Notes: generated from the letters alone by a model not told the origin. A DNA stretch of 64,000 nt from Candidatus Saccharimonadota bacterium (GCA_030530425.1 JAUMVA010000003.1:1-64000), one strand, 5' to 3'. Shown: positions 21,366 to 36,920, counted from the first letter of the stretch. Numbers and translations: made by a program.

Positions 21366-23015
21366 TCAAACATTGGGGATTCGCCAAGTGGTAAGGCACA
21401 TGGTTTTGGTCCATGCATTCGGGGGTTCGAATCCCTCATCCCCAGCCATAATATGGATTTTTTCAGAATCGTCGCCTAAAATGGCGACTTTTCTATTTGT
21501 ATTTTTTAATTCTTGCCAAAGACAAAAACTGCTTTCCACCCCCCCCTTCCGGAAAGCAGTTTTTGAACCAACTCCAAACTTGTTTTGGTGGTTGAGAGTG
21601 GTGAGGGTTTTGTTTTGCATTGCGAGGTTCGATCCAAAGATTTCAAGCAAAACAACTTTTTGCCCGCTAAAATCATCAGTTTCACATAAACTACAGATAG
21701 ACTTTGCTATTTCTAACCATTTTTGCATAGGTTCGATCCAAGCATTATGGTTAGCCGTGAGATTCGTTAAGTTTTCCTCCAAACTTTTCTTTTCGCTCAA
21801 AATCTCCGATTTTTTAGCTAGAAAAGTTTGACGGTCAATGTCTTGATCTAGGTAACTATCAAGCAAAATCTTTTGTTTGCCATTCAGATTGGCAATTTTA
21901 TCTTTCAAATTTGCCACAACTGACATATTATTCGCATTTTCGGCTTTTTCATCTCGCGTTATTCTACTGGATATATAATCGTAAACTTCATCAGATATCT
22001 GATAACCTCCGAGCAGTGCCGAAATTTGCGGTAGCAAATCTTTTTCACGGATTGCCGGCTCGGTGCATTTAATGAGCTTGTTCTTGCGCGAACATCGATA
22101 ATATGTCCAGTTGTGGACATTGCCGTTCATTTGCTTTTTGGTTTTTGTTTCGGCAGTTATTGCCATACCGCAAGACGCGCAACGAATAGCTCCCAAAAAC
22201 GGTATCGGCTCTTTTGTTTGAATTTTCTGGTGTCCACGTCGATCGATAACAGCCTGAACTTTGTCCCATAGCGATTTTGACACTATGGGCATATGTCTGC
22301 CTTCATGAAGTTCGCCGTTATATCTAAAATGTCCGTAATAAAAAGGGTTCTGCAAAATTGATTTTATTTTATCGTCTTTGAATAATTTTCCGCCACGCGT
22401 TATCGCACCATTTTCTTTCAGAAAATCGGCGATATCTGTCATTGTCTTATCTCCGCGCAAATATAGCTCAAACATTTGTTTGACGAGCTTCGAATATCGC
22501 TTATCAACAACAATTGTTTTTGTACGAACATCGTTCAAATAGCCAAATGGTGCAATAGACGGAAAATCGCCTTTGCGGACTTTTGCTCGCAATCCTCGCT
22601 TTGAGTTCTCGCTCAAATTATCTACATAATATTTAGACTGACCAAACATTATTGAAAGCATAAATTTGCCTTGTGATGTATTCTCGAATTGAAAAATCGG
22701 AAATTTCAAATAGTTGAGAGATGTTTGGTCTAGTAAATAGATAATTTGACCGCCGTCTATACTATTTCTAGCAAGTCTATCAGGATGCCAAGCCAAAATG
22801 CCGTTAGCCTCGCCATTTTTAATTCGCTTAATCATAGAATTAAAAATCGGGCGACCCGGCATTTTGGCGGTGCGTTTTTCTATAAGTTCATCGATCACCA
22901 CTAGCTGATTATCTTTTGCAAACCTGCGAAGCTCTGCAAGCTGTGCGTCGATACTCAAAACTTGCTTATCCTCTGTGTCTGTGCTTTTGCGAGCATATAA
23001 AATATATTTTTCCAT
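21366..23015 (-). CDS. Large serine recombinase (integrase of the element)
   Basis: 549-aa frame. The N-terminal resolvase domain has catalytic Ser11 (ILYARKSTDTEDKQ) and AWHPDRLARNSIDGGQII. The recombinase domain (FGYLNDVRTKTIVVD...) is followed by a zinc ribbon with paired Cys (RCASCGMAI, YYRCSRKNKLIKC) and a coiled coil (about residues 370-430). Large serine integrases catalyse unidirectional integration through attP/attB. The frame continues past a strong hairpin (21523-21565) and through antisense tRNA-Gln (GDEGFEPPNAWTK...), so the last 60-70 residues are probably not part of the functional protein in the free element. The start ATG is preceded by GAGGGG. Confidence 0.92.
   Translation of the reverse strand: MEKYILYARKSTDTEDKQVLSIDAQLAELRRFAKDNQLVVIDELIEKRTAKMPGRPIFNSMIKRIKNGEANGILAWHPDRLARNSIDGGQIIYLLDQTSLNYLKFPIFQFENTSQGKFMLSIMFGQSKYYVDNLSENSKRGLRAKVRKGDFPSIAPFGYLNDVRTKTIVVDKRYSKLVKQMFELYLRGDKTMTDIADFLKENGAITRGGKLFKDDKIKSILQNPFYYGHFRYNGELHEGRHMPIVSKSLWDKVQAVIDRRGHQKIQTKEPIPFLGAIRCASCGMAITAETKTKKQMNGNVHNWTYYRCSRKNKLIKCTEPAIREKDLLPQISALLGGYQISDEVYDYISSRITRDEKAENANNMSVVANLKDKIANLNGKQKILLDSYLDQDIDRQTFLAKKSEILSEKKSLEENLTNLTANHNAWIEPMQKWLEIAKSICSLCETDDFSGQKVVLLEIFGSNLAMQNKTLTTLNHQNKFGVGSKTAFRKGGVESSFCLWQELKNTNRKVAILGDDSEKIHIMAGDEGFEPPNAWTKTMCLTTWRIPNV
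21374..21448 (+). tRNA. tRNA-Gln (anticodon TTG)
   Basis: 75 nt including encoded CCA. Acceptor TGGGGAT pairs with ATCCCCA, the anticodon stem CATGG/CCATG encloses TTTTGGT with anticodon TTG at 21406-21408, and the T-arm is GGGGGTTCGAATCCCTC. The last five bases (AGCCA) begin the 174-bp inverted repeat of the mobile element, so the gene's 3' end is the integration site. The serine recombinase frame runs antisense across the whole tRNA. Confidence 0.97.
21471..21495 (+). terminator. Terminator of tRNA-Gln
   Basis: GTCGCC-TAAAAT-GGCGAC followed by TTTTCTATTT. It lies inside repeat A, so a reversed copy exists at about 23288-23312. Confidence 0.7.
21523..21565 (-). terminator. 15-bp hairpin inside repeat A, likely recombinase terminator
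   Basis: CAAAAACTGCTTTCC pairs perfectly with GGAAAGCAGTTTTTG around a 13-nt loop containing eight C. Read on the - strand it ends with TTTTTG, suitable for intrinsic termination of the recombinase transcript before its annotated stop. Confidence 0.55.
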
Positions 23016-23032
23016 ATTAACCCCTCACACCT

Positions 23033-23090
23033 AAATAGCCGTCTTGGTGCAACCAACCTAGAAAAACTAGACTGTCCAAGACGGCTATTT
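23033..23090 (-). promoter_or_regulatory. Long palindrome in the recombinase leader
   Basis: AAATAGCCGTCTTGG (23033-23047) and CCAAGACGGCTATTT (23076-23090) form a perfect 15-bp stem just upstream of the recombinase ATG at 23015. The 28-nt loop contains a smaller CTAG-AAAAA-CTAG hairpin. It could be an attenuator, an operator or a recombination site. No T-run follows it on the - strand, so simple termination is less likely. Confidence 0.6.
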
Positions 23091-23165
23091 AAGCCTACAA
23101 AATACAAATAGTTTTTCATTAGTTGGTTGCTCTTTTATTATATAGCTTTTTGATTATTTTTTACA

Positions 23166-23339
23166 CAAAACAAAACCCTCACCACTCTCAACCACCAAAA
23201 CAAGTTTGGAGTTGGTTCAAAAACTGCTTTCCGGAAGGGGGGGGTGGAAAGCAGTTTTTGTCTTTGGCAAGAATTAAAAAATACAAATAGAAAAGTCGCC
23301 ATTTTAGGCGACGATTCTGAAAAAATCCATATTATGGCT
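23166..23339 (-). repeat. Inverted repeat A, right arm (174 bp)
   Basis: Reverse complement of 21444-21617 with no difference seen. Its outer end ATTATGGCT mirrors the tRNA-Gln end AGCCATAAT, and its last 8 bases are also the first 8 bases of repeat B. Confidence 0.9.
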
Positions 23340-23490
23340 CGCTTTTACGAGCTTGCTCGAACCTATTTCCAGACTATGGCACGACGTTGAAAAAGAAACC
23401 AGGGCAAAGCCCTGTTCGGCGGGTCGGGGCGCGGGCGACCCGCCGAACTGCTACGCGCAAAAACCGCTGTTTGAGTGGTGAGTTAGAGAA
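23332..23490 (+). repeat. Inverted repeat B, left arm (159 bp)
   Basis: Pairs with 24891-25049 in inverse orientation. Differences are few: two in the GAGTGGTGAG stretch and several inside a central loop. At its core GTTCGGCGGGT and ACCCGCCGAAC form an 11-bp GC-rich hairpin with a 13-nt loop. This core is much richer in GC than the surrounding DNA. Confidence 0.88.
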
Positions 23491-23510
23491 AAGATATGCT
23501 CGTTTATTAT

Positions 23511-24143
23511 CTATTCCGTAAGGGTAGCTGCATGCATACGCAGCACATTATTTATGTCGAGAAGTGTAATTGCTTTGTTGCGGGCAAATTCCTTTGCGCC
23601 TTTCGTATAACCTGATGATGCTATAAAAATACCAGCATCAAGCCCCTCATGCGACATAGCCCCGTACAAATCGCGAATGGCAGCAGGTCCGATTGCCTTA
23701 TGGTGATTCTTACATTGAACGCCATATCGACGACCTGCTTTTTCTAGAAATATATCGATTCCACCGTCGCCACTGCCTTTTGTAACTTGCACGTCATATC
23801 CGTGAGCTTCATACAGCTTTGCCACTTCTTTTTCAAACTGATAGCCGCTCAGATTAAGCCAATATTTGGCGTATTTTTTCTCCAGTTCTTTGAATTTGCT
23901 TAATTCACCATCAAGGTAAGCTTTCTTTTCTTTGATAGTCTGCTCTAGTTCTCTGAGGTCATGTCTTCTATTGATACTGGAGTCAAGTATTGCGTTAACT
24001 ATGGTATAGGCAAATGAAAAAATCATAAATGCCGGAACTGAAAGCCCAATCAAGTCAGAGAAAATTTTATCTTGCCAATAATGAGTCAAAAAGTAGTAAT
24101 AGAACATTCCAACCAAACTTAGCCCCACAACAATAGAGGCCAT
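23511..24143 (-). CDS. Membrane-anchored Mrr-like restriction endonuclease (N-terminus probably frameshifted)
   Basis: Cargo gene of module 2. From the ATG at 24143: two hydrophobic segments (residues 1-20 and 31-52), a coiled coil (about 58-92), then an Mrr_cat PD-(D/E)XK domain with FEKEV, GSGDGGIDIF (Asp126/Asp130) and the Q-x-K catalytic pair YGVQCKNH (Q143, K145), and SSGYTKGAKEFA. Mrr family enzymes cleave modified or foreign DNA. The frame stays open for 50 codons upstream of 24143 with plausible coiled-coil coding but no start codon. An ATG at 24300 would join it after a one-base change in a T6 tract, so the intact protein was probably about 260 aa. Confidence 0.82.
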   Translation of the reverse strand: MASIVVGLSLVGMFYYYFLTHYWQDKIFSDLIGLSVPAFMIFSFAYTIVNAILDSSINRRHDLRELEQTIKEKKAYLDGELSKFKELEKKYAKYWLNLSGYQFEKEVAKLYEAHGYDVQVTKGSGDGGIDIFLEKAGRRYGVQCKNHHKAIGPAAIRDLYGAMSHEGLDAGIFIASSGYTKGAKEFARNKAITLLDINNVLRMHAATLTE

Positions 24144-24310
24144 ATTGCTCGTCTTTTCTGCCTCCGAACGGAGCTTGTTTTCTTCCTTTGCTAGTTGTTC
24201 GACTTCATTTACAACACTATTATGCTGTTTGATCTGCTCCTTGCTAATGTAGGGGCATTTTTTAGCCGAAACTAAATATTTATCTTTGAAAAAATATCAT
24301 ATTGTGTCAG

Positions 24311-24316
24311 ATTATA
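24311..24316 (-). promoter_or_regulatory. -10 element upstream of the Mrr-like gene
   Basis: TATAAT on the - strand, 10 nt before the ATG at 24300. This supports 24300 as the original start, ahead of the T6 frameshift. Confidence 0.5.
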
Positions 24317-24352
24317 CCATTTTTAGTTGTTATAGGGTAGAATAAAAGTACT

Positions 24353-24868
24353 GTGAGCGATATAGAGAATATAATCTTAACCGCATGTGCAACGCTTATT
24401 GGAGGAGTACTCCTTTTGATTGTGTCAGAGCTGTTTAAGGTTTTGGTCATAGTACCAACTCAAAAGACACGAGAACAAATACAGGTCGTGCTGAGTCAAG
24501 TTGATTTCTATTCTAATAGGCTTACTAACTTCTTTTCTGCAGAGCCAACTGAACACGAGATAGATATAATTAAATCAATCACCCAGGATCTCAGAAAAGC
24601 TGCGACCGACTTACAGTCAAAATATGAACTAGTTTATATGAAGAAACCACTTGCATTATTGAAGATACTGCCAAGTCAAGAGCGAATTGAGGTTGCGTTT
24701 ACTGGTCTAATATATTTACACAATTCAATCTTGTACGAAGGACGGCGTGATTATATAGTAAATCTTATAGAAATGAACGACAATGAGATAGAACGGGTTA
24801 AGGCTGCTTTAACTGGTGAAGCTATTCCTGGTAAACTGAAGCCCGAGGAGCAACGAAGATTCGTTTGA
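24353..24868 (+). CDS. Hypothetical membrane-anchored protein, 171 aa
   Basis: Not recognised. It begins with GTG, has an N-terminal hydrophobic helix (residues 8-33, IILTACATLIGGVLLLIVSE) and then a mostly helical, charged cytoplasmic part (QTREQIQVVLSQVDFYSNRL, ITQDLRKAATDLQSKYELVY) ending KLKPEEQRRFV. It is divergent from the Mrr-like gene within the same repeat-bounded cassette, so a shared role (for example defence or maintenance) is possible but unproven. A TAGAAT element precedes the start by about 9 nt. Confidence 0.65.
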   Translation: MSDIENIILTACATLIGGVLLLIVSELFKVLVIVPTQKTREQIQVVLSQVDFYSNRLTNFFSAEPTEHEIDIIKSITQDLRKAATDLQSKYELVYMKKPLALLKILPSQERIEVAFTGLIYLHNSILYEGRRDYIVNLIEMNDNEIERVKAALTGEAIPGKLKPEEQRRFV

Positions 24869-24890
24869 GTAAAAGCAGTTAAAGGTGTAC

Positions 24891-25049
24891 TTCTCTAACT
24901 CGCCACCCAAACAGCGGTTTTTGCGCGTAGCAGTTCGGCGGGTCGGGGTGCGAGCAACCCGCCGAACAGGGCTTTGCCCTGGTTTCTTTTTCAACGTCGT
25001 GCCATAGTCTGGAAATAGGTTCGAGCAAGCTCGTAAAAGCGAGCCATAA
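24891..25049 (-). repeat. Inverted repeat B, right arm (159 bp)
   Basis: Reverse complement of 23332-23490 with minor divergence. The 13-nt loop of its GC-rich hairpin reads in the same direction as in the left arm, although the arms themselves are inverted. The outer end is GAGCCATAA, the right-hand AGCCATAA boundary of the element. Confidence 0.88.
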
Positions 25050-25091
25050 GAGCCTTTTGATGAACTTACGAGTTTATCAAAGGACTCTTTT
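25050..25091 (+). terminator. Strong hairpin terminator just outside the element
   Basis: A 17-bp stem (GAGCCTTTTGATGAACT with AGTTTATCAAAGGACTC, one mismatch and two wobbles), loop TACG, then TTTTAG. It directly abuts the AGCCATAA boundary. It may be the terminator that originally followed tRNA-Gln before insertion. Confidence 0.7.
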
Positions 25092-25234
25092 AGATTGAAA
25101 ATTAGATTTTTACCGTTCAACTAGATGTTCGAGAGTATTAAACTGACAATTTGAATGCTAATTATTTAAATATATCCATAAGACAAAAGGTTCGTAGTTG
25201 AGTATTGTAGTAATTTTTGCTATCATTATTGTAA

Positions 25235-25883
25235 ATGAAACAGATTCTAATCGCAACGACCAACCCTGGCAAAATTATAACTGCAAAGAAAATTTTATAT
25301 AAACTTGGTTATGAAGGTTTATCTTTTGCCGATTTAAATTTAAAATTAGAAGAACCCGAAGAAACAAAAACGACAGCGCAAGAAATCGCCGAAGAAAAGG
25401 CACTCGCTTACGCGAGACAATTTAAAGATTTACCAATTCTTGCCAGAGATGATACAAATACTTTGGTTGGTGTAGCAGAAGAGGATGATCCTAAAAATCA
25501 TAACAAGCAATTTGTTGCAAAAATAGTCGGTGAATATTCAAACGAAAACAGCGAAAAAGTTTTTTTCGGAAATTGCGCATAAATATGGTGGCGAAATTCC
25601 ACTTCAATTTAACTGAGGCCATGCTATTGCCTGGCATGATGGTGATTCAATAAAAGTTGTTTCTGATGTAGCAACCACTGATGCATCTAAAATTAAAATA
25701 GTTGACAAAATTTCTCCGAAAAAGATCCCTGGTTTTTGCTTTGCATCTATTTCACAAGTTTTAATTGGCAATAAGTGGCGTTACGATTCAGAGCTAACCG
25801 AAGATGAAAGCTGGGAGGCATATTGGGATCTTCAAGCTAAGGTTATAAAAAAGCTGATTGAAAAAAGTTTTACGTCAATTTAA
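25235..25883 (+). pseudogene. RdgB/HAM1-like ITPase gene, broken by frameshift and stop
   Basis: The first 115 codons resemble a non-canonical purine NTP pyrophosphatase: MKQILIATTNPGKIITAKKI, then ETKTTAQEIAEEKALAYARQ and LPILARDDTNTL. At a T7 tract (25560-25566) the frame shifts. The continuation EIAHKYGGEIPLQFN, then in-frame TGA at 25614-25616, then GHAIAWHDGDSIKVV ... FTSI runs to the TAA at 25881. Both lesions must be repaired for a full protein of about 215 aa. TGA replaces what was probably TGG (Trp). It lies next to the mobile element, so decay after insertion is plausible. Confidence 0.75.
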
Positions 25884-25942
25884 AAATATCCAGTTTTTCT
25901 CGTTCATAACCATCTATAATCTTTATAATTTAAATTGACTCA

Positions 25943-36129: not shown

Positions 36130-36696
36130 TTATTTGCTGCACGCTTCGATAATTAATTTAGCAATTACCGATACATCTTCTTCTTTAAACTCTGAGTTAC
36201 TATCGATATAGTCTGTAATTTCTGAAACATTAGAAATCGGTTTTTTTACTGATAGAGGAAAGAAAGCCGCATAATTATTAGCAGCAATAGGCGATATGTG
36301 AGCAAAAGAAGACGAAAAAATAATATCCTTACTACTTGGTTCATAAAATAGCCTTAATATACAAATTGATGCTTCCATGCAATCCTTCCCAAAAAAATAT
36401 TCTTTTACATCTTCTGGCTCTGGATATTCTTTGATTGGTAATGCTAATATATAACCTAGAATTGGTTTGCTATAACGCTTTGATTTGTATTCATCGCCTG
36501 AAAAAACCCAAGAATTACCGATTTTTACCATATCATTACAAATCATGGTTAAATGTCCAGATTCACAAGTATCGTAATACGAGTCGATTGGGCAATAAAA
36601 CTTCAACTGTCTTACGTCATCTGCAGGGACTAGTTGTTTTAGTTTCTGATAAATCGCCGGCACTAGTTTAGATTTTTTAATCTTTTCATTCTTCAT
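36130..36696 (-). CDS. Hypothetical protein, 188 aa
   Basis: Not recognised. A soluble protein with a Lys-rich start (MKNEKIKKSKLVPAIYQKLK), a YCPIDSYYDTCESGHL segment with two Cys, GKDCMEASICILRLF, and an acidic C-terminus. A strong Shine-Dalgarno sequence (AGGAGGT) precedes the ATG at 36696. It sits between a terminator and the tRNA-Leu attachment-like region, so it could be accessory cargo, but composition gives no clear sign of transfer. Confidence 0.7.
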   Translation of the reverse strand: MKNEKIKKSKLVPAIYQKLKQLVPADDVRQLKFYCPIDSYYDTCESGHLTMICNDMVKIGNSWVFSGDEYKSKRYSKPILGYILALPIKEYPEPEDVKEYFFGKDCMEASICILRLFYEPSSKDIIFSSSFAHISPIAANNYAAFFPLSVKKPISNVSEITDYIDSNSEFKEEDVSVIAKLIIEACSK

Positions 36697-36775
36697 ATTT
36701 ACCTCCTACACTGAAAAAGAACTAGTAACAATGTTATATTATAATGTTTAACTATTTTTTCAAATTAAAATCTCA

Positions 36776-36920
36776 CCAAAATCTGGAAAACTTCGGAATT
36801 GTCGCCTAAATCAGCGATTTTTTCATTCACATTTTTTTAATTCCTTTCACAGGCAAAAATTAAAAAATGTAAACCAAAAAATCGCCCAGAAAGGCGAGGA
36901 TCCGAGTTTTTCTTCTAAAA
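36776..36920. repeat. Degenerate inverted repeat next to tRNA-Leu, related to repeat A
   Basis: 36785-36835 and 36857-36915 are imperfect inverted copies of each other (about 50 nt; TCGCC hairpins and an AATTAAAAAATGT-like core). Read outward from tRNA-Leu on the - strand, the order (hairpin TCGCC/GGCGA, T-run, GTTTACATTTTTTAATTTTT, TGCC) parallels the sequence after tRNA-Gln (GTCGCC/GGCGAC, TTTT, TTTGTATTTTTTAATTC, TTGCC). This may be a relic of a related element or a shared terminator family. Confidence 0.55.
36876..36897 (-). terminator. Terminator of tRNA-Leu
   Basis: On the - strand TCGCC-loop-GGCGA is followed by TTTTTTGG, about 25 nt after the tRNA 3' end. Confidence 0.65.

Follow-up and report, generated by a model that had tools for sequence, protein, structure and literature searches.

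Large serine recombinases (LSRs) of the canonical kind, when no directionality factor is present, recombine only one pair of attachment sites, attP with attB, and the motif for their zinc domain is shifted by 5 bp between those two sites (PMC3783163). We describe here an element that is classed as a variant of the LSR integrative elements, at positions 21444-25049 of a 64,000-nucleotide stretch of DNA from Candidatus Saccharimonadota bacterium (GCA_030530425.1 JAUMVA010000003.1:1-64000; this whole stretch is called the window, and positions are counted from its first letter). It shares with the A118/LI integrase, the phiC31 type and other LSR-borne elements the order Resolvase-Recombinase-Zn ribbon, a match to the A118 integrase C-terminal domains and the shifted zinc-domain motif in attP and attB. 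Unlike known LSR elements, the family to which it belongs has two inverted copies of attP, an attP that lies inside the recombinase open reading frame (ORF), a C-terminal extension of about 100 residues and, across the clade, about any tRNA 3' end as target.

Several other described systems share features with it. The 'suicidal' tyrosine integrases of SSV1, pTN3 and pT26-2, described as exclusive to archaea (PMC8371274), have attP in the integrase gene, a tRNA target, a product that is altered by integration and the paradox of how the element leaves again. The window enzyme, in contrast, is a bacterial serine recombinase and not a tyrosine recombinase of the SSV, pTN3 or pT26-2 families; the exchange affects its C-terminal tail alone, and the native 3' end of its gene is kept as an inverted spare. 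The pdif (XerC/XerD) modules of Acinetobacter plasmids are likewise bounded by inversely oriented recombination sites, with diverse cargo and an unproven mechanism of mobility (PMC7885321), but they have Xer sites of about 28 bp, a host recombinase and a plasmid location, whereas the present elements have their own LSR, arms of 80-185 bp and chromosomal tRNA sites. With integron cassettes they share structured ends and cargo of mostly one to three genes of very diverse function, but there is no attC and no IntI tyrosine integrase, each element usually has a single cargo unit, and the recombinase is its own LSR. The yeast 2-micron circle (FLP/FRT) consists of two unique halves and two perfect inverted repeats that hold the recombinase site. 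That outline is found here too, but in an integrated element in which no replication gene was seen, rather than in a replicating plasmid with a tyrosine recombinase. The original prediction, made from the window's sequence, had called the layout unfamiliar, and so it proved: it was not found in a literature search that left most subscription papers and all preprints outside its reach, and the inverted-attP architecture appears to be undescribed.

The element in tRNA-Gln(TTG) and its inner junction

The 8-bp core AGCCATAA occurs as a direct repeat at 21444-21451 (attL) and 25042-25049 (attR), both on the plus strand, and inverted, as TTATGGCT, at 23332-23339. The first pair of arms (21444-21617/23166-23339) is 174 nt long and 100% complementary. 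The second pair (23332-23490/24891-25049) is 159 nt long and about 92-94% complementary overall, the 93 nt adjoining the core being perfect and the next 55 nt matching at 96%. Both pairs overlap by exactly 8 bp, which are the core. In all of these repeats and their positions the original prediction was right. If the right end (...CGTAAAAGCG AGCCATAA) is joined to the left end (AGCCATAA TATGGATTTT...), the product is the attP that the excised element would have, ie the circle junction 25049/21444, and the inner junction at 23332 is its exact reverse complement. Because the inner junction equals the circle attP, inverted, the two 'modules' of the original prediction are the two halves of one circle. 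Its recombinase half and cargo half, each with inverted ends and with a common core at a tRNA gene, are present as it had proposed; its view that these were independent modules joined at the core did not hold. It is well supported by the comparison that one attP of about 325 bp would be present twice in the excised circle, as two inverted copies that divide the recombinase half from the cargo half.

On the left, the target gene, tRNA-Gln(TTG), occupies 21374-21448 on the plus strand (ARAGORN; Rfam tRNA match 21374-21445), so that its 3' end lies in the left core; it represents the left half of attB. Beyond each core the arms are named P' and Q. The outer P' arm (21452-21617) is an exact inverted copy of the inner one (23166-23331), and contains the 3' part of the recombinase gene and a terminator-like hairpin directly after the tRNA CCA. 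The inner Q arm (23340-23490) is the inverted copy of the outer one (24891-25041), which forms the left half of attR; between them the inner core is the centre of an intact, inverted attP with the order Q-core-P'. The recombinase ORF as integrated (21366-23015, minus strand) encodes 549 aa with Resolvase, Recombinase and Zn_ribbon domains (Pfam) and matches the A118 integrase in phmmer. The short direct repeat that bounds the element is common to the intact target site: in the same genome, but on a different contig, tRNA-Gln(CTG) is followed without a break by AGCCATAAGAGCC/AGCCATAAGAGCCTTTTGATGAACTTACGAG, which is 94% identical to the element's right flank. That flank (25050-25120) is terminator-like and resembles the sequence directly after tRNA-Gln(CTG) at 94% over 79 nt and 92% over 113 nt. 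An uninterrupted arrangement much like it is present in another genus. Neither of these empty-site equivalents (L009 and L283) contains the repeats; an empty site that had them was what the original prediction named as evidence against itself. We have little doubt that 21444-25049 is one integrative LSR element with the geometry given above.

Distribution, arms and attachment sites

The collection of recombinase relatives drew on genome contigs, 151 genomes of the family and a phylum-wide sample of 380 genomes, 137 of which gave relatives (E<=1e-80). A first set comprised 20 loci with both repeat pairs, L138 included. In all 18 of the two-module loci tabulated first the inner junction consists of inverted Q, core and P' from the locus's own attL and attR arms, and the same is true of L138. 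Chance is excluded as the source of the layout, because the repeats are perfect over 93-174 nt and the same architecture was present in 19 other loci, each of which was read individually. In the phylum-wide sample, examined by script, an inverted P' copy was detected for 46 of 64 recombinases of the fetched regions and the Q pair as well for 28; several of the cases with no detected copy come from contigs that break off at the inner repeat. Of 393 genomes of the order, 15 contained the Q-arm motif, mostly with a single copy in each orientation, and controls gave zero. In a tree, the repeat-bearing recombinases cluster apart from more distant repeat-less relatives, the exception inside the cluster (L133) being a fragment. 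The original prediction had suggested searching for either module alone. On contigs of sufficient length neither module was found by itself, apart from L017, in which a second Q copy was not seen within 5.9 kb, and some solo remnants that look decayed. These small gene-cassette elements form a family that is widespread in Patescibacteria, a group in which gene flow is poorly understood, with recombinase relatives in about one third of the sampled phylum genomes.

Across elements the arms extend over 80-185 bp (P') and 40-185 bp (Q) around NNCCA. All 40 arms of 20 elements are closest to their own inverted copy; identity within an element is 98.1% for P' and 99.3% for Q, vs 89.2% and 89.8% for the best other element. 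Some process must homogenise the arms or make them anew, either recombination between arms or an event during replication.

Most tRNA types serve as targets, among them those for Gln, Leu, Arg, Lys, Gly, Phe, Thr, Val, Glu, Met, Ile, Ala, Ser, Trp, Asn, Asp and Pro. At each locus attP and tRNA share NNCCA, and NN follows the tRNA (AG, CA, CT, TA, GA, GT, CG and others) yet matches attP. A 2-bp crossover at nucleotides 72-73 of the tRNA, AG in the window, with CCA restored by the element, would be consistent with this pattern. The arrangement also places the terminator-like hairpin of the P' arm directly behind the tRNA. With spacing measured from the core, CGAAC, the complement of the T-loop GTTCG, lies 19 nt away in most tRNAs and 23-24 nt away in attP. 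Among 24 loci it is further out in attP by 5 bp in 16 and by 4 bp in six, the window having 4, and the offset matches the 5-bp zinc-domain shift of serine integrases. The zinc domain of the recombinase probably reads the universal T-loop. Such recognition, if true, would give access to nearly every tRNA gene, and a serine recombinase family that apparently reads the universal T-loop and the CCA end would be of practical interest as an integrase with a broad range of targets.

The exchanged recombinase tail and its possible role

As in SSV1-type integrases, the crossover lies inside the recombinase ORF, and in the window the last 25 codons of the integrated gene run antisense into tRNA-Gln. When the circle is reconstructed, or the recombinase half inverted in silico, the protein ends in ...LVxFYxxARTYFSTKC and a stop, or close variants. 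This native tail is in frame, with its stop mostly 36-51 nt past the core, whereas the stops of integrated forms scatter. As read from the sequence, integration replaces the native tail of about 15 residues by an antisense-tRNA peptide whose length varies; in the window ...MAGDEGFEPPNAWTK... stands in place of ...MARFYELARTYFQTMARR, which the first 51 nt of the inner Q arm would complete, stop included. In the phylum-wide sample xRxx[F/L/Y] is kept in 33 of 36 readable tails. The codons vary (Thr is ACC, ACT, ACA or ACG, and the aromatic residues are TTT, TTC or TAC), and because the residues are kept while codons change, the constraint acts on the protein as well as on the DNA. The catalytic and DNA-binding core stays intact, and the gene is not split into inactive halves as in the archaeal suicidal type.

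With one exception, the C-terminus of the recombinase faces the tRNA wherever the orientation could be placed. If the circle has a near-identical pair of attP sites, neither orientation should be favoured over the other; the bias means that integrants with the native tail either do not arise or are unstable or lost. The sole opposite candidate is L232 (8961-10574, G622), where a tRNA-Tyr that has no encoded CCA precedes a P'-like arm and the N-terminus of the recombinase, and the contig ends inside the gene. It is possibly a flipped integrant.

These observations lead us to propose, as the most probable of the explanations considered although with some reserve, a gene-cassette element of Patescibacteria that is moved by an LSR and has a duplicated inverted attP, a tail swap that acts as a lock and an inversion that resets it. 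The attP copy used by the LSR would be the one at its own gene's 3' end, and recombination of this copy with the 3' end of a tRNA gene would leave attL, attR and, inside, an intact inverted attP. While the enzyme was active that inner attP could react with other tRNA genes, and it is for this reason that a turning-down would be needed; the tail swap would supply it and so protect the host. The inner copy would store the native 3' end of the gene. If the recombinase half were inverted between its P' arms, whether through homologous recombination or by the enzyme, the gene would be made whole again and excision could follow. The separate parts of this scheme differ in strength. That the tail swap has a functional effect is rather probable. 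That inversion is the reset is possible, with the balance somewhat against it, and the complete device, an integrase disabled by tail exchange and re-armed in place by inversion from a mirror-image spare 3' end, is put forward only tentatively.

Several points weigh against the scheme. Neither the circle nor the inversion was observed. The pairing attL x attP is not one that canonical LSRs use (PMC3783163), so that an enzyme-driven inversion between those sites is not expected and homologous recombination is the likelier agent. Constraint on the DNA site accounts for part of the tail conservation. In phmmer the A118 integrase C-terminal domains match residues 157-435, so that the A118-like core is complete near residue 435, before the tail; the swap touches only the C-terminal extension of about 100 residues and the swapped enzyme may stay active. 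An AlphaFold model of a contiguous native-tail copy (L012:2685-4262) had a mean pLDDT of 65, with the tail below 50, and was uninformative on the tail. There are also relatives with enough upstream sequence in which an inverted P' copy was not detectable (L226-L229, L248 and L259). These, together with L233, where an attP-like inner junction with a native tail but no long repeat lies 1.2 kb upstream, may show how the duplication arises or decays. No candidate gene for a recombination directionality factor was found in the recombinase half.

Other explanations of the inner attP have been considered. It could be an operator, at which the recombinase binds beside its own promoter and regulates itself, the second copy having no role in recombination. 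The inner P' arm is indeed just upstream of the gene, 37-250 bp from the start in most of the phylum sample, and KplE1 IntS is a known case of autoregulation through a promoter-overlapping att site, which is also predicted for most integrases associated with tRNA genes (PMC2951348). Tens of bp would suffice for that purpose, however, while here 80-185 bp of P' and 40-185 bp of Q are near-identical, the latter on both sides of the cargo, and the match of the Q arm beyond the cargo to the inner copy is left unexplained; we regard an operator as rather unlikely. About equally unlikely is that the identical Q arms flanking the cargo serve homologous swaps of cargo between co-resident elements, as an integron-like reservoir. 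Unrelated cargo in elements with similar recombinases and Q arms, between-element similarity that stops near the arm/cargo border, and the existence of tandem elements (L012) all speak for such exchange, but no exchange event was caught and both the P' duplication and the stored native tail would have no explanation.

Amplification of the 2-micron kind, in which recombination between inverted copies during circle replication flips the halves and yields extra copies, would account for the geometry and for the concerted evolution of the arms. It is less probable still, as no replication gene was seen in the element, LSRs are not known to carry out attP x attP (PMC3783163) and no free circles were found in IMG/VR or in phage and plasmid collections, where only distant recombinases appeared (<=31% identity among the matches listed). 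The starting layout of the original prediction could also be read as two unrelated inverted-repeat transposons side by side at a tRNA gene, or as an artefact of assembly or amplification, and many contigs of metagenome-assembled genomes do end at the inner repeat. Repeats longer than the assembly k-mers produce such ends, though; the same junction occurs in dozens of loci, and some single-contig genomes (L139, L140, L146, L220, L236, L237, L241 and L245) have the complete layout. These genomes, with the Q copies of the window that differ at several positions, rule out an assembly artefact in general, and two independent transposons are rejected in view of a junction that equals the predicted circle junction. 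We give this last reading almost no credence. If the LSR element with its tail-swap lock and inversion reset is accepted, it would be a bacterial, serine-type counterpart of the archaeal suicidal integrases, with a possible built-in reset, and the tail swap offers a testable, sequence-encoded switch for integrase control.

Cargo, decayed copies and neighbouring features

Cargo amounts to one to six genes, of very different kinds across elements: S51 and S58 peptidases, NUDIX proteins, a CAAX protease, EamA transporters, alcohol dehydrogenase, adenylate kinase-like proteins, methyltransferases, a leucyl-tRNA synthetase and AAA/REase proteins. According to PADLOC it is not mainly defensive, with a few restriction or Mrr-like matches. 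The window element carries an Mrr-type nuclease with N-terminal membrane segments (23511-24143, minus strand; Mrr_cat, E 4e-31; ZorD/type IV-like matches in PADLOC) and a 171-aa protein with an N-terminal hydrophobic segment (24353-24868, plus strand), which has no significant Pfam match, PycTM being sub-threshold (E 0.026). The arms contain GC-rich hairpins that vary in sequence, and folding of the arms, as hairpins or as ssDNA, was considered as a possible reason for the repeats; in an Rfam scan (E<=1) the tRNA was the sole match and no RNA family was found in the arms. Upstream of the recombinase start, in the mRNA leader (23032-23091, minus strand), there is a perfect 16-bp hairpin, TAAATAGCCGTCTTGG...CCAAGACGGCTATTTA, which alignment finds alike in relatives and which is possibly an attenuator or operator.

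At one tRNA-Leu two complete elements stand in tandem (L012, 323-7557). What had appeared there as a chain of four modules is this pair, and the idea of even and odd module chains was dropped. The recombinase tail of the second element is completed by the Q arm of the neighbouring first. A decayed element lies in the window at tRNA-Leu(CAA) (36760-36920), and consists of a P' arm, no recombinase, an inverted P' arm, the core and the start of Q (TTGGTGAGATTTTA). A 188-aa ORF near this scar (36130-36696) has no Pfam match and may be left-over cargo, and a second attR-like site to the left of the scar was rejected as an ordinary terminator within shuffle range. Another remnant, a solo P' arm with the recombinase C-terminus, lies behind tRNA-Leu(TAA) at about 5845-5947 of L010 (G000 contig 9).

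To the right of the window element (25235-25890) a gene for a Ham1-like pyrophosphatase appears to be frameshifted: its ORF ends at 115 aa and coding-like sequence seems to go on in another frame. The two tRNA-Gln genes of this genome share a 113-bp downstream stretch at 92% (25042-25154 in the window, and L009), as if gene and terminator had been duplicated or converted.

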